From assembly GCA_958296235.1 (NCBI GenBank), contig OY282457.1, positions 4,335,338 to 4,399,337 on the forward strand: 64,000 nucleotides of DNA. Reading direction: 5' to 3'. Shown here one piece after another: positions 5,799 through 46,276 of the stretch (its first letter is position 1; each line of letters opens with the position of its first letter). Origin of the DNA: an uncultured Candidatus Binatia bacterium. GTDB lineage: Bacteria; Desulfobacterota; Binatia; Bin18. A model generated the notes under the pieces. It saw only the letters and a list, made by a program, of their open reading frames with translations, made no database searches and was not told the origin of the DNA. The position numbers were made by a program, and so were the translations under genes.

Positions 5799-6782
5799 CT
5801 AGCGGGACACAAACTCGGGCATGACGCGCTGAACGAAGAGCGCCTGCGAATCAGCGGAGGCCGGTATGAGAATGAAATACGTGATGCCCAGGTCTTCAAT
5901 GCGCATGGTGAGATCGCGCCTGACCTCGTCTGGCGTGCCCATACAGAGCAGGGGCGAGCGGCGGGCCGTTTCCACATCAGGAAAGCCCAGGCGGGACGCA
6001 ATTTTACCGAACAGGGGATCGTCTGTCGTATTGGACAGACAGAGCATGGCCATGCCGCCAAGTTCGATGCTGTGCGGGTCGCGGCCAACTTCACCGACAT
6101 AGGTGTGGAACATGCCAATCCGCCGTTCGAGTTGGGTCATGTCAAAGGCGACGGTGGCGACCGGGTCGTTCACAAAGTCTTTGCCGTTAAAAATAGGGGG
6201 GATGATATTGAGGATGTCGGCTTCGGCCGCGGCGATTTTAAGCAGTCCGCTTCCAGAACCGCCCAGCATAAGCGGCGGACGGGGCTGTTGCGCCGGGCGC
6301 GGATTATTATACGCCTTATCGATCGAGTAATACTGGCCGTGAAACGTCGGCTCTGGCTGGGTCCACATGGCCTTGATGACCTGGATGGCCTCGGCCATTT
6401 GGGCCAGACGTTCCGCGTTGGAGGGATAGGCATAACCGTGAGCATCGTATTCCGATTGCTGCCAGCCGGCTCCCAAGCCCAGGGTCAGCCGCCCATTACT
6501 GACGTGGTCCAGAGTGGCGGTCATCTTGGCCAGCAGCGGGGGCGGACGAAACGAAGCGGCGGCGACCGTGGGGGTCAGACGGATGCGGCTGGTCACGGCG
6601 GCAACAGCCGTCAGGGTAGTGAAGCACTCCAACTGCGGGATCTGCGGCGCGCCCAACGGAGAGAAAAAATGATCGTTAATCGACACCGAATAAAAGCCGT
6701 CGTTCTCAGCACGGAGCGCGACCTGCTTTGCCGCGGCAAAGTCGCCAGTGGGTAAGAACAAACCAAACTTGACAGCGTGCAT
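5799..6782 (-). CDS. LLM class flavin/F420-dependent oxidoreductase
   Basis: About 327 residues of the luciferase-like monooxygenase TIM barrel: MHAVKFGLFLPTGDF start, VSINDHFFSP, TSRIRLTPTV, and the diagnostic DHVSNGRLTLGLGAGWQQSE. Members use reduced FMN or F420 to oxidise varied organic substrates, and the substrate here is not predictable. The ATG at 6782 has AGGAGAG four bases upstream; a longer reading frame begins inside the operator region and is unlikely. Two identical palindromes lie 25-53 bases upstream of the start and may regulate it. Confidence 0.9.
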   Translation of the reverse strand: MHAVKFGLFLPTGDFAAAKQVALRAENDGFYSVSINDHFFSPLGAPQIPQLECFTTLTAVAAVTSRIRLTPTVAAASFRPPPLLAKMTATLDHVSNGRLTLGLGAGWQQSEYDAHGYAYPSNAERLAQMAEAIQVIKAMWTQPEPTFHGQYYSIDKAYNNPRPAQQPRPPLMLGGSGSGLLKIAAAEADILNIIPPIFNGKDFVNDPVATVAFDMTQLERRIGMFHTYVGEVGRDPHSIELGGMAMLCLSNTTDDPLFGKIASRLGFPDVETARRSPLLCMGTPDEVRRDLTMRIEDLGITYFILIPASADSQALFVQRVMPEFVSR

Positions 6783-6806
6783 ACGTCTCTCCTGTGCCTC
6801 CCGTTT

Positions 6807-6835
6807 CTGTCGCCGACAGATTCTGTCGCCGACAG
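6807..6835. promoter_or_regulatory. Tandem 13-bp palindromes (candidate operator)
   Basis: Two identical copies of the perfect palindrome CTGTCGCCGACAG occur at 6807-6819 and 6823-6835, 16 bases apart centre to centre. They lie in the intergenic region between the divergent LLM oxidoreductase (start 6782) and the AbrB-VapC pair (start 6947). Tandem dyads of this form usually bind a dimeric repressor cooperatively. The regulator is unknown; the AbrB-like antitoxin next door is one candidate. Confidence 0.6.
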
Positions 6836-6946
6836 AGGCCGATAGGTATATCAGATGGGTGTCCGCTGCAAACACTTGTCCCTGACCGCTTGCTTGTGCG
6901 CCGCCTTTGTCTTACCCTGTTCTTACTTTTAGAAAGGATGCCGACT

Positions 6947-7210
6947 ATGGAAACGACCCGGCTTTCAAGTAAAGGGCAGATCATTATTCCCAAGGCCATT
7001 CGGCAAGCCTGCAAGTGGTCGGTTGGGCAAGAGTTCCTTGTTGAACAAGCCGAGCAGGGGATATTGCTCCGCCCTCAAGTTCCCTTCCCTCAAACATGTC
7101 TGGATGACGTGGCTGGTTGTCTTCAATACAAGGGACGGGCGAAGACCTTGGAGGATATGAATAACGCCATGAGACGGGGCGTTTTGGAGCGTGGGCGTGA
7201 TTGCGGTTGA
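6947..7210 (+). CDS. vapB: AbrB/MazE-type antitoxin of a VapBC-like module
   Basis: 87 residues. The N-terminus (METTRLSSKGQIIIPKAIRQ) is the SpoVT-AbrB swapped-hairpin DNA-binding fold, and the C-terminal part would wrap the toxin. It overlaps the downstream PIN gene by 14 bases, typical translational coupling of antitoxin and toxin. The ATG at 6947 is preceded by AGAAAGGA with eight-base spacing; an upstream ATG at 6938 overlaps that site and is less likely. Antitoxin-toxin complexes usually autoregulate, perhaps through the nearby palindromes. Confidence 0.88.
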   Translation: METTRLSSKGQIIIPKAIRQACKWSVGQEFLVEQAEQGILLRPQVPFPQTCLDDVAGCLQYKGRAKTLEDMNNAMRRGVLERGRDCG

Positions 7211-7592
7211 TACCAATGTGCTCGTGCGTCTTTTGACGCGAGATGATGAGACGCAATTCAAGAAAGCGGTCAAACTGTTCAGAGAACCGCGGCTCTTTGT
7301 TTCAGAGAGTGTTCTGCTCGAAACTGAATGGGTCCTCCGCTACGCCTATACATTTTCTCCAGATACTATCGTGCAGGCTTTCCGTAAGCTGCTGGGACTC
7401 CCGCAGGTTTCTGTTGGGAATGCTCAGAAGATGAGGCGGATTATCGATTGGCACGAACAAGGACTCGACTTTGCCGATGCCATGCACCTCGCCAGTTGTG
7501 AGAGTGAGGGCTGCTCAGAGTTGGCCACTTTTGATAAGAAGTTTATGAAGCAAGCAAAAGGGCGGGGAGAATGTGTGGTTCGGGTGGTCTGA
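7197..7592 (+). CDS. vapC: PIN-domain toxin ribonuclease VapC
   Basis: About 131 residues with a PIN-domain fold. The acidic metal-binding residues are visible: Asp in IAVDTNVLVR, Glu in LLETEWVL, Asp in LDFADAMHLA and Asp in LATFDKKF. VapC toxins are Mg-dependent RNases that cut tRNA or rRNA. The GTG at 7197 has GGAG seven bases upstream; a GTG at 7191 is too close to it. Its reading frame is intact, so the module is probably active. Confidence 0.9.
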   Translation: MIAVDTNVLVRLLTRDDETQFKKAVKLFREPRLFVSESVLLETEWVLRYAYTFSPDTIVQAFRKLLGLPQVSVGNAQKMRRIIDWHEQGLDFADAMHLASCESEGCSELATFDKKFMKQAKGRGECVVRVV

Positions 7593-7628
7593 GTCAGCAT
7601 CGACCCCGCCAAACGAAAGGACGCTAGT

Positions 7629-8336
7629 ATGGCAGAAAAACCAGTTGTCGCAGTGCTTGGAGTTGGTCCGGGCTTGGGGGCCGCGCTAGCCCATCGGTTC
7701 GCTCAAGAATATGCCGTGGCCATCAACGCCCGCCGCGCGGAATATCTCAAATCGCTGGCGGAAGAGATCCGCGCTAAAGGAGGCCAGGTCTGCGAGGCCC
7801 CAGCCGACCTGAGCGACCAAGCCCAGATCGAGACGCTGTTCAAGACGATTCGTGAACAGCTCGGCCCGCCTGAAATCCTGCTCTATAACGCCGGCAGTGG
7901 TGCCTTTGGCACAATCGCCGATATGACCCCGGAACAGTATGAGGACGCCTGGCGTGTCAACGCCTATGGCGCGTTTCTGAGCGCAAAGGAAGTGGTCCCG
8001 GACATGCTTGAACGCGGGCGCGGCTCCATGCTGTTTACCGGCGCGACCGCCGGCGTCAAGGCCGGCCCCCGTTCAGTGGCCTTCGGTCCGGCCAAATTCG
8101 CCCTGCGCGGCCTGGTGCAATCGCTGGCGCGCGACCTGGGTCCCAAGGGCATCCATGTGGGCTGGGTCAATGTTGACGGTGTAATCGACATCCCTGGCCG
8201 CAATTTTCCCAATATGACCGAGGAAGATATGCTCAAGCCCGAGGCCATTGCCGAAACCTACTGGCATATGGCCCATCAGGACCGCAGCTCGTGGACGACC
8301 GAAATCGACGTGCGGCCGTTTAAGGAAAAATTCTGA
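7629..8336 (+). CDS. Short-chain dehydrogenase/reductase lacking the catalytic tyrosine
   Basis: 235 residues with a Rossmann fold. The nucleotide-binding loop is LGVGPGLGAALA (a variant of TGxxxGxG), followed by LLYNAGSGAFG (the NAG motif). The catalytic YxxxK site reads AFGPAKFALRG, so the tyrosine is replaced by phenylalanine while the lysine is kept. A subset of SDR proteins with an FxxAKFA site exists and may act with a different mechanism or as binding proteins. The start codon follows CGAAAGGA. It lies 36 bases after vapC but is probably unrelated. Confidence 0.87.
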   Translation: MAEKPVVAVLGVGPGLGAALAHRFAQEYAVAINARRAEYLKSLAEEIRAKGGQVCEAPADLSDQAQIETLFKTIREQLGPPEILLYNAGSGAFGTIADMTPEQYEDAWRVNAYGAFLSAKEVVPDMLERGRGSMLFTGATAGVKAGPRSVAFGPAKFALRGLVQSLARDLGPKGIHVGWVNVDGVIDIPGRNFPNMTEEDMLKPEAIAETYWHMAHQDRSSWTTEIDVRPFKEKF

Positions 8337-8363
8337 GTCCGACCGGGACAGAGCGCGCGGCTC

Positions 8364-9161
8364 CTAGCCCTGCCCGAAGCGGCTGCCCGGCGCGGGCGGC
8401 TCTTCCGGCGGACCGGCAAAACACTGGGCAATGGCCATCCATCTGGTAGCGGTATCGCCGCTCACTCGAAGTGAGGTGTCCGCGATATTCCGCACCTGCG
8501 TGACCACCTGACAGAACTCGACCGCGCTGCCCTCGATCCGGTTCTCCTGATCGGGTTGATTCCACTCCCATATCTCTCCCGAGGGCGCGCTGAGCCGCAG
8601 GGAAGGGATGTCTGGTGGTACGGTGAGGTTGCGATTCGTGAAGGTCCAGCCGAAAGTATTCACCCCCATGACGACAACATTTTTGATCCGGTCGGTGTTG
8701 GCGCGGGTTTGGCCCAGCAGGTCGTATATGGCCTGACTGTGCGCCCAGGTTTCCATCAGGCGCGCCGTAATACTGGAACGCACGCTCATGTCCGGTCCGA
8801 ACCATTGCACCCGTTTTTTCGGGTCCGCCACCGCAAAGCGCTCCGTCATCTCAAGCGAGAAATCACGCCAGTGATGCAACAGCGTCCGGGCGCGCAAACC
8901 ATTGAGCCAGACCTGGGTGAAGGCCAGACGACCGTGCTGTTGGCTGCCGGCGGCGAATTCTTTCACCAAGTCCAGGAAGGCGTTTGTATCCTGCAATGAG
9001 AGGTCGGCCGCATAGTTACCCATATGCAGATGGGCAATAATGTCGTTGAGAGTCCACTCTTTGAACTGCGTTTTCCTTCCCCAGTCCTGATCGTCCAACC
9101 CGTCGAGCAGGGCGAAGACCGCTTCGCTCTCTTCCCGGAAATCCAGGGCTTGCTGCAACAT
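8364..9161 (-). CDS. TIGR03084-type DinB-like metal-binding protein
   Basis: 265 residues. The N-terminal half is a DinB/maleylpyruvate isomerase-type four-helix bundle: WTLNDIIAHLHMGNYAADLS with a His-containing helix, and METWAHSQAIYDLLG providing another His. The C-terminus AIAQCFAGPPEEPPAPGSRF is typical of this family. These proteins are often thiol-dependent enzymes in actinobacteria; the function here is unknown. It is convergent with the SDR gene with 27 bases between stops. Confidence 0.82.
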   Translation of the reverse strand: MLQQALDFREESEAVFALLDGLDDQDWGRKTQFKEWTLNDIIAHLHMGNYAADLSLQDTNAFLDLVKEFAAGSQQHGRLAFTQVWLNGLRARTLLHHWRDFSLEMTERFAVADPKKRVQWFGPDMSVRSSITARLMETWAHSQAIYDLLGQTRANTDRIKNVVVMGVNTFGWTFTNRNLTVPPDIPSLRLSAPSGEIWEWNQPDQENRIEGSAVEFCQVVTQVRNIADTSLRVSGDTATRWMAIAQCFAGPPEEPPAPGSRFGQG

Positions 9162-9295: not shown

Positions 9296-11137
9296 ATGTA
9301 CGAACGAGAGCAGCGAAGCCTTGCCGCCGTACTTGGACACCTGACTCGGATTGTTTTCCTGGGCGTCGCCGTCGTGGGCCTGGGGAGTACGGCGACCAAG
9401 GCGGTCGAGGAGGCGCGTTTACGCCAAGCCCACACCGACCATGACAACTGGTTGACCTATGGACACGGCTATGCCAATCAGCGCTATAGCGGGCTTGAGC
9501 AGATCACGACCGACAACGCGTCCCGACTGGCGCCGAAGTGGATATATCAGACCGGTGTACTCGGGACGTTTCCAACGAATCCTCTTGTTGCCGACGGAAC
9601 GATGTATCTCACCACGCCGTACAACCACGCGGTTGCCCTTGATGCAGCAACTGGGATGGAACGCTGGCGTTACACGCATGAGATGTCCGTTGACACGCTC
9701 TGTTGCGGCACCCACAACCGGGGCCTCGCCCTTGGCTACGGGCGACTGTATATGATCACCGCGGACGCGCGTCTGATAGCGCTCGATGCCCACACGGGAA
9801 CACCCGTGTGGGATATACCGGTTGTCGATCCGACGACCGGAAACCCGGCCGACCTCACGGCGCTCAAAGAGCTCAAAGCCACAGACGCCGCAAAGCCCGA
9901 GAACACAGCTGCACTCGCGGCCCTGACGCGCTTTGCCGGCAATATGGCGCCGGTCGTCTACGACGGCAAGGTATTTGTCGGTGTGAGCGGGACTGGATAT
10001 AGCGGGGTACTGGGTGAAGCCGAAGCAAACGACCCGTCTCTCCTCGGTCGGCCCGGTCCGCGACGTGGCCTGCGCGCTTTCCTGTCGGCCTATGACGCAA
10101 CGACCGGGCAATTGGTCTGGCGCTGGTATTCGAGCGCCTCGGAAGGCTGGGAAGGCGATTTTGTCGGGCAGACTGCGTTCGGTGATGTCCTGGAACGCGA
10201 CCTGGCCGCCGAGCGTGCCAATGCGGACCAATACCGCGACGCCTGGAAGACTGGCGGCGGTTCGATTTATTCCTCCCCGTCAATTGACCCGGAATTGGGG
10301 CTGATTTATTTCGGAACTGGTAACGCTTCGCCTGGCTATGCTGATTACAAACGCCCCGGCGACAACCTGTACACTGCCTCCCTGGTCGCACTCGACATAC
10401 AGACCGGCGCGTTGCGCTGGTATCACCAGCTCGTCCCGCATGACATTTGGGGCTATGACGTAGCCTCACCCCCGGTTCTGTTTGATTTTCCCGCCAATGG
10501 GAAAACGATACGGGCGGTGGCGGAAGCCTCGAAATCCGGTTGGCTGTATATATTCGATCGGGAGACTGGCAAGCCATTACGCCGCTCGGAAGCCTTTGTG
10601 CCCCAGAACGACTTGCTCTTCCGCAGACCGACTTCCGAGGGGATGTTGATTGCGCCCGGAGCCGCGGGCGGAGCAAATTGGCCGCCCACGTCGTATAGTC
10701 CCAAGACCGGCTGGTTGTACGTCTCAGGCACCCACAACCCGACGCGCTATCAACTGAAACCAGGGGAGGAGGGGAAGCCGGATAGTATCGTCATTTCGTT
10801 TGATAAAACCGTGGAACGCTGGGGGACCCTGAGCGCCATTGCGCCCCAGGACGGACAGATCAAATGGCAGGTCAAAACAGACTTGCCACTGGTGAGTGGC
10901 TCACTTGCGACTGCGGGCGGGCTGCTCTTTTACGGTGAATCGAACGGCCAGTTTGTTGCCCGCAACGCCCAGGACGGTGCGGCGCTGTGGCGCTTCAACG
11001 CTGGAGCCGGGGTCAATGCTCCGCCGGTGACCTATGCGGTGGATGGGAAGCAATTTGTCACGGTTGCTGCCGGTGGACACAAGTTGTTCGGTTTTCCTCT
11101 GGGCAATGCCGTGATCGCCTTTGGCCTGCCTGACTGA
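9296..11137 (+). CDS. PQQ-dependent dehydrogenase, methanol/ethanol family
   Basis: About 613 residues. A hydrophobic N-terminal segment (RIVFLGVAVVGLGSTATKA) predicts export to the periplasm. The body is an eight-bladed propeller with repeated tryptophan-docking segments. The adjacent cysteine pair in VDTLCCGTHNRGLA forms the unusual vicinal disulfide seen over PQQ in alcohol dehydrogenases. HDIWGYDVASPPVLFD is also characteristic. It should oxidise an alcohol or aldehyde and pass electrons to a cytochrome; no cytochrome c or pqq genes are in the window. ATG 9296 has GAGG seven bases upstream. Confidence 0.9.
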   Translation: MYEREQRSLAAVLGHLTRIVFLGVAVVGLGSTATKAVEEARLRQAHTDHDNWLTYGHGYANQRYSGLEQITTDNASRLAPKWIYQTGVLGTFPTNPLVADGTMYLTTPYNHAVALDAATGMERWRYTHEMSVDTLCCGTHNRGLALGYGRLYMITADARLIALDAHTGTPVWDIPVVDPTTGNPADLTALKELKATDAAKPENTAALAALTRFAGNMAPVVYDGKVFVGVSGTGYSGVLGEAEANDPSLLGRPGPRRGLRAFLSAYDATTGQLVWRWYSSASEGWEGDFVGQTAFGDVLERDLAAERANADQYRDAWKTGGGSIYSSPSIDPELGLIYFGTGNASPGYADYKRPGDNLYTASLVALDIQTGALRWYHQLVPHDIWGYDVASPPVLFDFPANGKTIRAVAEASKSGWLYIFDRETGKPLRRSEAFVPQNDLLFRRPTSEGMLIAPGAAGGANWPPTSYSPKTGWLYVSGTHNPTRYQLKPGEEGKPDSIVISFDKTVERWGTLSAIAPQDGQIKWQVKTDLPLVSGSLATAGGLLFYGESNGQFVARNAQDGAALWRFNAGAGVNAPPVTYAVDGKQFVTVAAGGHKLFGFPLGNAVIAFGLPD

Positions 11138-40767: not shown

Positions 40768-41591
40768 GCGGCGTCTAGTGCGGAAACAGCGGACAAGCGC
40801 AGGAGTGGAGAGAAGGCCAACAGCGGGCGGAGTCCCTCCCACACCCCGAGCAACTGGAGTGCCATGACCACTATTGTCCCAGCCAACACAATCCGAATCC
40901 AGCCTTCACCCTTACTGACCCCCCAGTGCGCCCCGAACCACGCGCCGATGCTGGTCGTTAGTGAAAGGAGCAGTCCCACACGCCAATCAACTTTCCCGTT
41001 CAGCGCAAAGACGCAGCAGGCAATACCAGTCAGGCCCATGACAATAACGACTTTCACGCCATTTGCCAGGGTGAGATTCAAGCCGCCCACAGTGCTCAGC
41101 GTCACCAGTATCAAAATACCTGCCCCAATCTGAAGTAAGCCACCGTAGAGGCCGATGCCGAAAAAGACGCCTTGGAGCAGGCGTCGCCCCCGACCTGTCC
41201 CGCTGACAGCCAGCAGTTTGCTGCTGAGGACCGGCTCAAACATTATCGGGATGAGCAGAACCAGCATGGTGATGGCCAATACACTCTGGAAGACTGCATC
41301 GTCCAGACGGACCGACACCAGCGCGCCACACACCGAACCCAGCATGGCCGGGAGCATGAGCGTAAGGGCTAAGCCTGAGTCAGTCTGGTTCAGTTTTGTA
41401 TACGCAGCCAGCGCAGTCAGACTTTGCAGGACAACGGCCAGACGATTCGTTCCGTTGGCAACTCCCGGCGGCAGCCCGACCAGAATGAGGACTGGCACGG
41501 TCAGCATGGCCCCTCCGCCGGAAACCGCGTTGAGAAAACCCGCGGCCAGACCGCTGAGGGTAATGAGGAGCATATCGGTGAGTGACAGCAT
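40764..41591 (-). CDS. TSUP (TauE/SafE) family permease
   Basis: 275 residues with about eight membrane helices. The first repeat contains SGLAAGFLNAVSGGGAMLTV, the family glycine-rich signature, and the second GLYGGLLQIGAGILILVTL. Members move sulfite, sulfonates or other small anions. ATG 41591 gives the family N-terminus; a longer frame would add 41 residues of translated repeat DNA. Upstream, two copies of GGGCAGCCACAGGGGG occur at 41600-41655. It precedes the CRISPR locus and is transcribed away from it. Confidence 0.87.
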   Translation of the reverse strand: MLSLTDMLLITLSGLAAGFLNAVSGGGAMLTVPVLILVGLPPGVANGTNRLAVVLQSLTALAAYTKLNQTDSGLALTLMLPAMLGSVCGALVSVRLDDAVFQSVLAITMLVLLIPIMFEPVLSSKLLAVSGTGRGRRLLQGVFFGIGLYGGLLQIGAGILILVTLSTVGGLNLTLANGVKVVIVMGLTGIACCVFALNGKVDWRVGLLLSLTTSIGAWFGAHWGVSKGEGWIRIVLAGTIVVMALQLLGVWEGLRPLLAFSPLLRLSAVSALDAA

Positions 41592-41700
41592 AATAGAAAG
41601 GGCAGCCACAGGGGGGCAGCCGCAGGATAAAAAGGGCAGCCACAGGGGGCTGCCCCTACCATTGCGGCGCCTGGATTGTGTGGCGATTGTTGCGTGTCTG

Positions 41701-41747
41701 AGCGAGAGGGTCAAGCAGAAGGCGTCGGGCAGGAAAGAATCTCGTCG
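41701..41747 (+). repeat. Left flanking direct repeat of the CRISPR-Cas9 locus
   Basis: 47 bases that match 46002-46048 in the same orientation at 42 positions. Shared blocks are GTCAAGCAGAAGGC and GGCAGGAAAGAATCT. It lies 57 bases before the tracrRNA 3' end; its partner lies 38 bases beyond the last CRISPR repeat. I found no other copy in the window. Confidence 0.75.
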
Positions 41748-41759
41748 TCAGCGGAGGGA

Positions 41760-41839
41760 AAGGCCCGGCGTACCGAGCCTTCCAATTTTGTGACTTGAGC
41801 CTTGTTAACGAGTTGGCTCAAATCCAGATGATCTAAGCT
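41760..41839 (-). ncRNA. tracrRNA
   Basis: On the minus strand the sequence from 41839 down is the anti-repeat: 22 consecutive pairs with the CRISPR repeat (one G-U), then a small bulge, then a six-pair lower stem (CAACTC with GGGTTG) and a final GTTG/TAAC pairing. A tail with AACAAGGCTCAAGTC follows. It ends in a 9-bp GC hairpin at 41760-41781 with a four-base TACG loop, then TTTCCC. This is the layout of a type II tracrRNA. The 5' end is inferred and could extend a few bases toward cas9; a TATACGAT element about 10 bases upstream may be the -10 box. Confidence 0.87.
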
Positions 41840-41901
41840 GTGGAAGCGTAGCATCGTATACGCTAGCCTGCAAGAAATATTTGAAAGAGAGGAGGGCAAG
41901 C

Positions 41902-44900
41902 ATGGCGTGGCGTCTGGGGATTGATCTGGGAACAAACTCTTTAGGCTGGTGGGCGTTCAACGTTGAAAAAGAAGGCCATCAGTGGCGGGTCAGCGACTCG
42001 CTCAACGGGGGCGTGTACATCTTCCCGGATGGGCGGGAGCCGGCAAAAAGTGGGCGTGTGGGTAACAGCAACGCGGTAGAACGCCGCAGGGCGCGGTCAA
42101 TGCGCCGCAACCGGGACCGACGCAAAACACGCCTTCGTGCCTTCATGCGCGAGCTTGTTGAGTTGGGGCTGATGCCCAAATCGCGAGACGAACGTGACAA
42201 GCTGTTCCAGCCACGAGCGAAATCCAACGCTCCTGACCGCTCCAATCCCTATTGGCTGCGCGCCGAGGCAGTGGAACGGCTCCTTGCACCCTACGAACTT
42301 GGGCGGGCGTTGTTTCATCTCGGACTACGGCGAGGCTTTAAGTCCAACCGGCTTGAACAGGCGGATGACGATGGCGGTAAACTCAAGAAACACAAACTCA
42401 AGAAACGCATAGACGAACTCCACAAGACCCTGAACGGCAGAACGCTCGGTCAGGTCCAATGGGCGCAATTCCAGGCGGAGAGAGAACGGCAAAAGTCGGG
42501 TGAAAAGCCTGCTGGCATCCGGTTCAGGGGCGAGAGCGAGTTCTACCCGGACCGAGCCATGTACGCGGCGGAGTTCGACGAAATCCGCAAGAAGCAGGAG
42601 GCCCACCACCGTCCAGAGCCCGCTGATTGGGACCGTTTACGGGATCGGTATGTTCTTTTTCAATGGCCTTTGAAACCTGTGGAAAGAGGTCGCTGCGAAT
42701 TCTTTCCAGAAGAGGCTCGACATTGGCGCGATACTCCTATCGGCCACGATTTCCGTATCTATCAGGAAGTCAATATGCTGCGTTGGGTCGATGCCGACTA
42801 CCAGGAGCATCTCTTGAGTGACGACCAAAGGTCAGCCGTATTGCATCTCTTGCTCACCAGAAAATCTGAAGTCAAATTCAACTCACTACGTAAACAGAAG
42901 CGCCGAGACCGTACCCCGCTGTTCCCCGGCTGTATACGGTTCAATCTGGAAAGCGAGAAGCGCAAAGGACTCAAGAACCACGCTATCGGTGCAACGCTCG
43001 CAAAGAATCCGAATCTTTCCCACCTGTGGCAACGCCGCTGCTCAGACGAAGGCGACGCCGGTCTGCTCGATAACGTTTTCGAGGCGCTTCACGAAGAAGC
43101 CGAACCGGAAAGTCTCGCAACACGGCTCGCGGCAGATTTTGAATTTGATAGTGCAGTTATTGAGGCGTTTTCTACACTCCACCCTTCCCGGGCAACCGCA
43201 AATGTTTCCCGCCGATTCATGGAAGCCATCGTACCGATCATGCGCGATCAGAAACTCTTGTACTGGGAAGCGGTCCGTGAGGTTAAAGACGGGAACGGCT
43301 CTCCTCTGCGTCACAGTCAACAGCCTGAAGGTAGACACCATGACACTCTTCCTTATTATGGGGAAATACTGCATGGCTCGACACTCGGAGCAGACCCCAC
43401 AGCCGACCCGCAGACTGCACCTGAACAACACTTTGGCAAGATCAACAATCCGACGGTTCATGTCGCGCTCAACAGCCTTCGGCGAGTCGTAAATACCTTG
43501 ATTGAACGGTACGGTGAACGACCAGTTGAAATCCATGTGGAGCTGTCGCGAGCCCTGAAACGGACTCGGAAAGAGCGCGACGAAGACACTAAACAGCAAG
43601 CTCACAACCAGGAGGAAAATGACCGTATTCGAAAGGAACTCTCGAAACTCGGAGTCGCACAATCAGCGCGTAACATCAAGAAGTTTAAGCTGTGGGAGGA
43701 ACTCGGTAAGAACACGCTGGCTCGTTGCTGTCCCTACTCTGGGAAGCCGATTTCTTGTGCCCAGCTTTTCAACGACAATGGAGAGGCGGAAATTGAACAT
43801 ATCCTCCCATTCAAGCGCACGCTCGATGATTCTATAGCCAACCTCACCGTCGCAATGCGCTGGGCCAACCGGCGCAAGGGCAATCAGACACCCTACGAGG
43901 CGTTTGCTTCAAACGCTCACGCCGCTTACGGCATCGAGTGGGACACCGTGCGCAGGCTCGCTGACGGCTTACCCGACAACAAAAAATGGCGGTTCGGACC
44001 GGACGCAATGGCCCGGTTTGAGGGTGAGAACGATTTCATTGCTCGGCAGTTGACGGACAACGCCTATATCGCGCGCGCAGCTATGCGTTACCTTCGCTGC
44101 CTCAAGAATGTAGAACAGATTGTTCCCAACCGTGGCGGCCTGACCTCCCTATTGCGTAGGAAATGGGGCTTCAAGAAGGACCGTGGAGATCACCGTCACC
44201 ACGCCGTTGACGCCGCCGTCATTGGGCTGGCCGACCGGGCGATGCTTAATAGGGTCTCCAGACAGACCGCCCGAGGCGCGGATGACCGGGTGCACATCAT
44301 CGTGCCCGAACTCCCGGGACCGATTGAGCAAGCGATTCGCGCCCGTGTTCCTGAAATTGTCGTGGCATTCAAGCCAGACCACGGCTGGCAGGGAGCGATG
44401 TTCAAAGACTCCGCATATGGTTTCATTGCGCCGGAACGACGCGACCCGGATATGCCGGAACACAATCTCGTGGTTCGCAAGGCGTTCACGGATCTTACCC
44501 TCAAAGAATGTGGATTCATCAAAGATAAAGATAAGCCGCCTCGCTATGTTGGTGGTTGCATCCGCGCTGAGCGGCTTCGCAACTCCATAGGTGTATACCT
44601 CACACAGGCAGCAGAAAATGGGGAAGATTTGACAAAGCCCGCCATATTGAAAAAGGTCCTGGCACGTTTCGGAGCAGAGTACGGGGTCGGCAAGGTGCGG
44701 ATTCTGGTTACTGACCAAACCGTTGTGCCCATACCCTCGACTCCCTACAAGGGCTATAAGCCTGATTCCTACGTCTGTTGTGATATCTGGCGTTGTCCAA
44801 AGGGGGAGAAGGGTGGGTGGCAGAAAGGGAAATACGAGTGGCGCGGTGTGTATTGGTCCTATGCGGATACGCCGAACGGTGTACCTGCACCGGGAGCGCG

Positions 44901-45150
44901 TAAGCCACACCCCGCCGCAAAGCTGGTCGCTCGTCTTTATAAGAGCGACATGATCGCCTACGAGAAAGACGGGCAAACGCAGATCATGCGCGTTGCCGGG
45001 TTCAGCACGACAAATAATAAGTTGGACGTGGTTCCGCATTCCGCTGCCGACCCGAAACAGAATTTTGTGCTCATCGACAAGCTTGGCGCTGGAGGCCTGC
45101 GGAAACTCTGGGTGTTTCCAGACGGTCGGATAAAGGGCCTCAAAAGATGA
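41902..45150 (+). CDS. cas9: Compact Cas9 endonuclease (type II-C-like)
   Basis: 1082 residues. The order is RuvC-I (WRLGIDLGTNSLGWW, Asp8), arginine-rich bridge helix (ERRRARSMRRNRDRRKTR, near residues 60-78), a REC lobe, RuvC-II (RPVEIHVELSRALK, Glu547), HNH (EAEIEHILPFKRTLDDS, His633, with ANRRKGN), RuvC-III (DHRHHAVDAAVIG, His767 and Asp770) and a C-terminal PAM-interacting region. All catalytic residues are present, so it should cut both DNA strands. ATG 41902 has GGAGG six bases upstream. The size is near the small II-C enzymes. No cas1, cas2, csn2 or cas4 lies nearby. The PAM is not predictable. Confidence 0.97.
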   Translation: MAWRLGIDLGTNSLGWWAFNVEKEGHQWRVSDSLNGGVYIFPDGREPAKSGRVGNSNAVERRRARSMRRNRDRRKTRLRAFMRELVELGLMPKSRDERDKLFQPRAKSNAPDRSNPYWLRAEAVERLLAPYELGRALFHLGLRRGFKSNRLEQADDDGGKLKKHKLKKRIDELHKTLNGRTLGQVQWAQFQAERERQKSGEKPAGIRFRGESEFYPDRAMYAAEFDEIRKKQEAHHRPEPADWDRLRDRYVLFQWPLKPVERGRCEFFPEEARHWRDTPIGHDFRIYQEVNMLRWVDADYQEHLLSDDQRSAVLHLLLTRKSEVKFNSLRKQKRRDRTPLFPGCIRFNLESEKRKGLKNHAIGATLAKNPNLSHLWQRRCSDEGDAGLLDNVFEALHEEAEPESLATRLAADFEFDSAVIEAFSTLHPSRATANVSRRFMEAIVPIMRDQKLLYWEAVREVKDGNGSPLRHSQQPEGRHHDTLPYYGEILHGSTLGADPTADPQTAPEQHFGKINNPTVHVALNSLRRVVNTLIERYGERPVEIHVELSRALKRTRKERDEDTKQQAHNQEENDRIRKELSKLGVAQSARNIKKFKLWEELGKNTLARCCPYSGKPISCAQLFNDNGEAEIEHILPFKRTLDDSIANLTVAMRWANRRKGNQTPYEAFASNAHAAYGIEWDTVRRLADGLPDNKKWRFGPDAMARFEGENDFIARQLTDNAYIARAAMRYLRCLKNVEQIVPNRGGLTSLLRRKWGFKKDRGDHRHHAVDAAVIGLADRAMLNRVSRQTARGADDRVHIIVPELPGPIEQAIRARVPEIVVAFKPDHGWQGAMFKDSAYGFIAPERRDPDMPEHNLVVRKAFTDLTLKECGFIKDKDKPPRYVGGCIRAERLRNSIGVYLTQAAENGEDLTKPAILKKVLARFGAEYGVGKVRILVTDQTVVPIPSTPYKGYKPDSYVCCDIWRCPKGEKGGWQKGKYEWRGVYWSYADTPNGVPAPGARKPHPAAKLVARLYKSDMIAYEKDGQTQIMRVAGFSTTNNKLDVVPHSAADPKQNFVLIDKLGAGGLRKLWVFPDGRIKGLKR

Positions 45151-45176
45151 TTGGCGGTCTCGTTGAAGTCGCTGAA

Positions 45177-45200
45177 AATGGACGCTACCTATCCGTCCAT
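45177..45200 (-). terminator. Hairpin at the cas9-proximal end of the array
   Basis: Between the cas9 stop and the first repeat, ATGGACG (45178-45184) pairs with CGTCCAT (45194-45200) around a nine-base loop. Read on the minus strand the stem is followed directly by TTTT; on the plus strand by CGAG. This fits an intrinsic terminator for an array transcribed from right to left. Confidence 0.6.
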
Positions 45201-45202
45201 CG

Positions 45203-45963
45203 AGCTTAGATCATCTGGACTTGAGGTCAACCCGCAACCCGGTAATGATTGACCCGTTCATCGGCCATAGCTTAGATCATCTGGACTTGAGGTCAACCCG
45301 CAACGCGACCAAGGGGGGGGCGCTGCCCGACAAGAGCTTAGATCATCTGGACTTGAGGTCAACCCGCAACCCGCGCCGAAATGGTTTCCTCCGTTGGTGG
45401 AGCTTAGATCATCTGGACTTGAGGTCAACCCGCAACCGCAGGTCCTGCCAGGCCGTCGGGCCACTAAGCTTAGATCATCTGGACTTGAGGTCAACCCGCA
45501 ACCCTGCTCGCAGCATGGGAAGAGGAAGGCAGAGCTTAGATCATCTGGACTTGAGGTCAACCCGCAACACAAGCCTGGTTGCGGCATTCGGGGGCATAAG
45601 CTTAGATCATCTGGACTTGAGGTCAACCCGCAACTAAGGGGGGGGACTTGATGGACGAAGCAATAGCTTAGATCATCTGGACTTGAGGTCAACCCGCAAC
45701 CTGCGCGGCCTCCAGCCCATACCGAGGGCGAGCTTAGATCATCTGGACTTGAGGTCAACCCGCAACAAGCGGGTGGACCCCTGAAGAATCACTGGAAGCT
45801 TAGATCATCTGGACTTGAGGTCAACCCGCAACTCCAGCGCATCCCTTTTGAACATGATCGCAGCTTAGATCATCTGGACTTGAGGTCAACCCGCAACCCG
45901 GGTCGGGCTGCCGGGCAAGATATTGACAGCTTAGATCATCTGGACTTGAGGTCAACCCGCAAC
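45203..45963 (-). CRISPR. CRISPR array, 12 repeats and 11 spacers
   Basis: Twelve 36-bp repeats, all identical by eye, starting at 45203, 45269, 45335, 45401, 45467, 45533, 45599, 45665, 45731, 45797, 45862 and 45928. Spacers are 30 bp except one of 29 (45833-45861). In the inferred minus-strand direction the repeat begins GTTGCGGGTTGACC and ends GATGATCTAAGCT. The 3' half pairs with the tracrRNA at 41804-41839. Neither end repeat is degenerate, so the age order of spacers cannot be read. No spacer matches another part of this window. Confidence 0.98.
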
Positions 45964-46001
45964 GTCACATATCGGTGACTGACATCACAGGACTGACACG
46001 T

Positions 46002-46048
46002 AGCGAGAGCGTCAAGCAGAAGGCACCCGGCAGGAAAGAATCTTGTCG
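46002..46048 (+). repeat. Right flanking direct repeat of the CRISPR-Cas9 locus
   Basis: Partner of 41701-41747 (five mismatches in 47 bases, no gaps). It starts 38 bases after the last CRISPR repeat, leaving very little room for a leader. The 38 bases contain the inverted repeat GTCAC/GTGAC (45964-45979). Confidence 0.75.
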
Positions 46049-46057
46049 ATAATGTCC

Positions 46058-46200
46058 CAGTTTGCAGATTCCCCCTCACCCCAACCCTCTCCCCTTCGAC
46101 AGGCTCAGGACAGGCCTCCAGGGGAGAGGGAGCAGAGCCTCTGTCAGGGAGGGGGGCGCTGGGCCGGCAGCGGGGGAGGGGGATGTGAAACTGAGACACT
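46058..46200 (+). repeat. Dispersed palindromic repeat element, copy 4
   Basis: The copy begins CCCAGTTTGCAGATTCCCC, continues with CCCTCACCCC, TTCGACAGGCTCAGGACAGG and CAGGGGAGAGGGAG, and then CCTCTGTCAGGGAGGGGGG, which is shared with copy 5 at 60.74 kb. It ends near AAACTGAGACACTCC. With the flanking repeat it fills the space 45964-46276; no gene is seen there. Confidence 0.75.
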
Positions 46201-46276
46201 CCCATCTTGTCTGTTTCCTTGACCCTCAGCGTGTCTCTGCCTATGATCCGAGGACGCTGGCCAAAGGAGGGCGGAC

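Follow-up and report, generated by a model that had tools for sequence, protein, structure and literature searches.

Which strand carries the RNAs of a Cas9 locus has to be known before a guide RNA can be written for that Cas9, its crRNAs predicted or its PAM sought. Here, the question concerns a locus in a 64,000-nucleotide stretch of the genome of an uncultured Candidatus Binatia bacterium (contig OY282457.1; hereafter the window), for which an earlier note had deduced from G-U wobbles that the tracrRNA and the CRISPR array are both transcribed opposite to cas9. We consider it very probable that the window encodes a minus-strand tracrRNA for the Cas9 at 41902-45150 together with an array read from the same strand, both part of a II-C-derived module inserted at a site that congeners keep empty.

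A Cas9 module that has lost its adaptation genes

The protein-coding part of the module and its array comprise the following features.

41902 to 45150, plus strand: cas9, 1082 aa (TIGR01865, 3e-153; alignment)
45147 to 45202, plus strand: N-terminal cas1 remnant of 19 codons, MIGGLVEVAENGRYLSVHR (matches to Cas1 N-termini)
45203 to 45963, minus strand: CRISPR array of 12 identical 36-nt repeats and 11 spacers (repeat detection, with the strand inferred)

The Cas9 falls in the II-C size range and has both RuvC and HNH active sites, the catalytic residues D8, E547, H633, H767 and D770 all being present in the alignment, and neither csn2 nor cas4 is found beside it. The neighbours of the module are tauE, on the same strand as the tracrRNA, and a thiolase gene. 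Ten of the spacers are 30 nt long and one is 29 nt. The ATG of the cas1 remnant overlaps the cas9 stop codon (ATGA), and the remnant runs straight into the array, the first repeat beginning at the very next base. MIGGLVEVAENGRYLSVHR matches the N-termini of four II-C Cas1 proteins (0/1000 shuffles in each case) and gave no match to a divergent Cas1 control; a description of the locus as having no cas1 at all was dropped in view of this remnant. No cas2 is present in the module, and none of the three other Cas1 proteins of the genome is type II, their best matches being I-D, I-E and an untyped class. The locus is therefore one derived from a cas9-cas1-cas2-array locus, and since the cas9-cas1-cas2 operon is incomplete, we file it as II-C-derived and II-C-like in its working rather than as a complete II-C system. 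With cas1 cut and cas2 gone, no spacers can be acquired with the locus's own genes, and defence would be expected only from the 11 stored spacers. It is an adaptation-deficient, lineage-specific Cas9 module with an ordinary II-C-type tracrRNA.

In II-C systems, new spacers enter at whichever repeat is transcribed last, and the repeats carry their own promoters (PMC12080349). In the layout of the window, the last transcribed repeat is the cas-proximal one, and because the boundary between remnant and array is then the spacer-adding end, our guess is that the cas1 deletion used the cas-proximal spacer-insertion site. None of the spacers had a convincing match in phages, plasmids, the bacterium's own genome or its relatives, and three scans of viral contigs for exact 20-21-base matches gave none either, so that there is no protospacer from which to read the 3' PAM that would test the strand independently. 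The viral contigs also yielded no close relative of the window Cas9 under the patterns used.

Three related loci, L005, L081 (an Azospirillum thermophilum plasmid) and L076 (a Limnohabitans plasmid), share the layout of the window, with an anti-repeat that immediately precedes cas9 and lies on the other strand, an array downstream and likewise opposite to cas9, and a common UAACAAG core, nexus and 3' hairpin; the L005 Cas9 is 48% identical to that of the window. All three retain cas1 and cas2, in contrast to the 19-codon cas1 remnant and missing cas2 of the window. The II-C loci of Clostridium cellulolyticum (PMC7038990) and of Neisseria and Campylobacter likewise have a tracrRNA anti-repeat and an array opposite to the cas genes. 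Transcription of the array from within the repeats has been reported or suspected for them, whereas the repeat end in the window, GATCTAAGCT, is a poor match to an extended -10 element, and the window also differs from them in lacking adaptation genes.

The same genome holds a second II-C-like Cas9 locus, L018 (G000:C1:1650500-1666500, the locus itself at G000:C1:1656452-1661128), with cas9 at 5953-9105 of that stretch, a minus-strand anti-repeat upstream at 5914-5951 and a downstream array of 14 repeats at 9736-10629. Its adaptation genes are also broken or lost. It differs from the window in its repeat, in its Cas9 (29% identical), in the strong U-tract hairpin of its minus-strand tail and in what persists downstream, namely a frameshifted cas2 and, judged by eye, only a possible short C-terminal cas1 remnant. 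A third Cas9-like protein of about 1006 aa (L019, 4979-8002, minus strand; G000:C1:459978-463001) matches the Cas9d (II-D) model at 6e-167, and no array of at least three repeats was detected in the 12 kb around its gene.

Anti-repeat, hairpins and signals of the tracrRNA

The covariance-model match described below places the tracrRNA at 41751-41839 on the minus strand, where it and its immediate surroundings are made up as follows.

41804 to 41839, minus strand: anti-repeat, with the 5' end of the RNA at 41839 (alignment to the repeat and cofolding)
41792 to 41801, minus strand: nexus-like short hairpin, GGC-UCAA-GUC, three pairs (fold of the minus strand)
41758 to 41783, minus strand: 3' hairpin of 11 bp with a UACG loop at 41769-41772, followed by UUUCCCUCC (folding)
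41845 to 41873, minus strand: possible weak tracrRNA promoter, TTGCAG-17-TACGCT (by position, from L005 and L018)
41791 to 41826, minus strand: alternative hairpin of the free tracrRNA, in which GAUUUGAGCC (mid anti-repeat) pairs with GGCUCAAGUC

The anti-repeat is complementary to the CRISPR repeat and lies outside the array, near cas9. Cofolding of the minus-strand pair recovered the upper stem, bulge and lower stem that had been claimed: the upper stem has 23 bp and is separated by a 2x1 internal loop from a lower stem of 11 bp, which contains a one-base bulge. The anti-repeat is followed on the same strand by the nexus-like hairpin, whose counterpart in L005 is GAC-GAAU-GUC (RNAfold of the L005 tail), the middle pair changing from G-U in the window to A-U in L005, and then by the 3' hairpin. 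The minus-strand tail of 52 nt has a folding energy of -19.0 kcal/mol (z -2.2 against shuffles), and the equal plus-strand stretch, at -10.1 kcal/mol (z -0.9), does no better than shuffles; for the whole 88-nt RNA, the z-scores are -4.7 on the minus strand and +0.3 on the plus strand. At the gathering threshold, Rfam gave no match in the window.

Beyond these computed duplexes and folds, we infer expression, processing and interference, the last two from characterised type II systems. The array would be transcribed from the minus strand, towards cas9; in every pre-crRNA the repeat portion would be bound by the anti-repeat, the duplex consisting of the upper stem, internal loop and lower stem, with the nexus and then the 3' hairpin after it; RNase III would cut the duplex, and the dual RNA would be loaded into Cas9, which would then carry out guided interference.

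The signals around this RNA are less canonical. That a hairpin with a TACG tetraloop ends the minus-strand RNA was right as to the hairpin, although its loop is closed by a G-C rather than a C-G pair and it is not a canonical terminator: it runs into UUUCCCUCC with no U-tract, and a terminator scan found no intrinsic terminator on either strand. We treat a U-tract terminator as common rather than defining, as it is present in most homologues and not in all; the minus RNA ends in a U-tract hairpin in L005, L018, L076 and L077, the L005 and L076 hairpins differing from that of the window in this respect. At the 5' side, L005 and L018 have sigma-70-like promoters (TTGACG-17-CAATCT and TTGCTC-17-TATATT, respectively; by eye) seven bases before the anti-repeat. 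The corresponding TTGCAG-17-TACGCT of the window stops 5 nt before the anti-repeat; no promoter was reported there by an automatic scan, and it is a possible tracrRNA promoter by position.

These signals bear on the best-surviving alternative, which accepts the strand and takes the locus to be a relic in decay, its promoter and terminator degraded or read through into tauE, and no functional tracrRNA is made. The truncated cas1 and lost cas2 would fit decay, as would a window with neither a canonical promoter at the expected site nor a U-tract, where L005 and L018 have both. Decay is harder to reconcile with 12 identical repeats, with an intact cas9 that keeps all its catalytic residues and with an anti-repeat that still fits the repeat and is followed by both hairpins. 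We regard a relic as unlikely.

The free tracrRNA could also fold differently. In the alternative hairpin (10-12 bp predicted), the pairing partner of one part of the anti-repeat is a stretch resembling the repeat, and none of 1000 shuffles of the 3' arm paired as well; its formation excludes the crRNA duplex and the nexus alike. Alternative hairpins near this core also occur in several homologues, at differing places. Therefore, we claim no conserved switch and make no argument from covariation, the helix being at different positions among homologues. Such masking of part of the anti-repeat, together with the divergent arrangement of tracrRNA and cas9 and the overlap of their promoter regions, would suit an RNA whose main role is regulatory, for instance at the divergent cas9 promoter, rather than in interference. 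Against that role stand the full set of tracrRNA features, the array of perfect repeats and the genome itself, in which only the array and the anti-repeat were found, with no further partial match to the repeat that could act as a regulatory copy; we hold it to be very improbable.

Strand evidence in the window and in homologous loci

The earlier deduction rested on the few differences between anti-repeat and repeat. Aligned to the minus-strand repeat (GTTGCGGGTTGACCTCAAGTCCAGATGATCTAAGCT), the anti-repeat is identical at 31 of 35 bases and differs by three transitions and one transversion. The transitions are plus-strand A at 41807, 41811 and 41822, where the repeat has G, and all three give G-U pairs in RNAs made from the minus strand and A-C mismatches in RNAs made from the plus strand, as had been claimed. 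The proposed folding check agreed, the minus-strand duplex being more stable by 7 to 8 kcal/mol (-49.9 versus -42.9 kcal/mol for the 36-nt anti-repeat; -51.9 versus -43.6 kcal/mol with flanks). A lower-energy plus-strand duplex with a terminator, which the earlier note had named as evidence to the contrary, did not appear. When three transitions were placed randomly on the same skeleton, however, a gap at least as large arose in 7.6% of 2000 draws, and the chance of three transitions all falling in one given sense is 1/8. Therefore, the wobbles at this locus alone are weak evidence of strand, with the right sign and little power, and as proof from a single locus they had been overstated.

The argument becomes convincing once it is pooled over homologues. 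Over six loci (the window, L005, L018, L076, L077 and L081), 13 transitions fit the minus strand and 2 speak against it, counts that are partly dependent as the first wobble (GTTG versus GTTA) recurs in several related loci, and the minus-strand duplex is the more stable in all six. The homologues were chosen by similarity to the window Cas9 and are mostly plasmid-borne Proteobacteria. A covariance model (R1) trained on minus-strand tracrRNAs from four homologous loci, the window not being among them, was searched over both strands of the window; its best match in the 64 kb scored 31.9 bits (E 1.5e-5) and lies on the minus strand at 41751-41839, with the next match at E 0.77, these E-values being rough owing to a shortened calibration. 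R1 also matched the minus strand just upstream of cas9 in L070, L072, L073 and L074, at E-values from 8e-5 down to 4e-8; its match upstream of the L075 cas9 is weak (E 0.034), and none of the five loci had been used in building it.

Perhaps unsurprisingly, this orientation is the published one. In one published comparison, the experimentally determined II-C arrays all ran opposite to the cas genes, "as a rule" in the words of the authors (PMC6737040), II-C arrays have elsewhere been described as opposite to cas (PMC3936727), and RNA-seq in C. cellulolyticum shows an array opposite to cas (PMC7038990). The orientation found here is thus expected and not new, and the remark that it occurs "as in several II-C loci" gave the direction correctly and understated the frequency. 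As the R1 match, the homologous minus-strand tracrRNAs, the pooled excess of transitions and the II-C rule all agree, and as the orientations of tracrRNA and array are tied by complementarity so that one decides the other, both RNAs are almost certainly encoded on the minus strand, opposite to cas9, as the earlier note predicted. The least probable reading of all, that both RNAs run along cas9 on the plus strand with the anti-repeat as part of a leader RNA into cas9, is permitted by complementarity and by a plus-strand duplex that is still strong (-42.9 kcal/mol), and it faces three A-C mismatches, a tail that folds no better than shuffles, no terminator ahead of cas9 in the scan, the preference of all homologues and of the homologue-trained model for the minus strand, and the II-C rule (PMC6737040).

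In each of the five plasmid cas9 loci L070, L072, L073, L074 and L075, a minus-strand tracrRNA is thus predicted, weakly so in L075. No array of at least three repeats was detected in the stretches fetched for them, and several also have no annotated cas1 and cas2.

Probable arrival of the module in one lineage

More unusual than the orientation is that the spacer-adding genes have been lost and that the Cas9 module occurs in only 1 of the 7 genomes of the genus that were examined. In the six congeners, a short spacer free of CRISPR parts lies between tauE and the thiolase gene, an empty site, and no Cas9 above the family cut-off was found in these genomes. The tauE-thiolase intergenic sequence, single-copy in the six, is duplicated around the module.

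41571 to 41747, no strand assigned: left copy of the duplicated tauE-thiolase intergenic sequence (comparison with congeners)
45968 to 46048, no strand assigned: right copy, 81 nt, without the GGGCAGCC part (comparison with congeners)

The two copies are 89% identical over a 47-nt stretch. A leader at the far end of the module was dropped as a candidate, the sequence from 45968 onward being duplicated intergenic DNA. The left flank also contains the GGGCAGCCACAGGGGGCTGCCCCTACC element (41588-41680), a short element with many copies in the genus that is missing from the right flank. Insertion in one lineage is a simpler reading of this pattern than loss in all six congeners by recombination between the two flank copies. 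In the Cas9 tree, the window protein groups with a Kordiimonas MAG with full support, and the Cas9 of a member of the same family, G009, groups with Limnohabitans and not with the window Cas9, which suggests that the Cas9 module was transferred horizontally. The minus-strand tracrRNA module would then have entered this lineage at the site that the six congeners keep empty. The locus thereby offers a further example of II-C without adaptation, restricted to one lineage. A more elaborate scenario, in which a self-contained 4.2-kb tracr-cas9-array block, trimmed precisely at the first repeat by a deletion at the site of Cas1-Cas2 spacer insertion, moved into one lineage and left the intergenic target sequence imperfectly duplicated, with the tracrRNA restrained by its repeat-mimicking hairpin until a crRNA opens it, seems to us improbable as a whole.

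Several other elements in the genome and its relatives touch on this history. The site of L018 is empty in congeners too, and one congener without Cas9 (G001) has an orphan array with the same 36-nt repeat and neighbourhood as L018 (L103, 334-754; G001:C1:2425833-2426253). In a family-level relative with no Cas9 above the cut-off (G012), a solitary and nearly full-length copy of the window CRISPR repeat lies between genes (L061, 1067-1100; G012:C368). A dispersed repeat, about 150-180 bp long and with inverted ends resembling GTGTCTCAGTTT, matches the genome at 46 or more places. One copy lies beside the window array, at 46053-46205, and the copy closest to it in sequence adjoins the other Cas9 array, in L018 at about 10700-10890.
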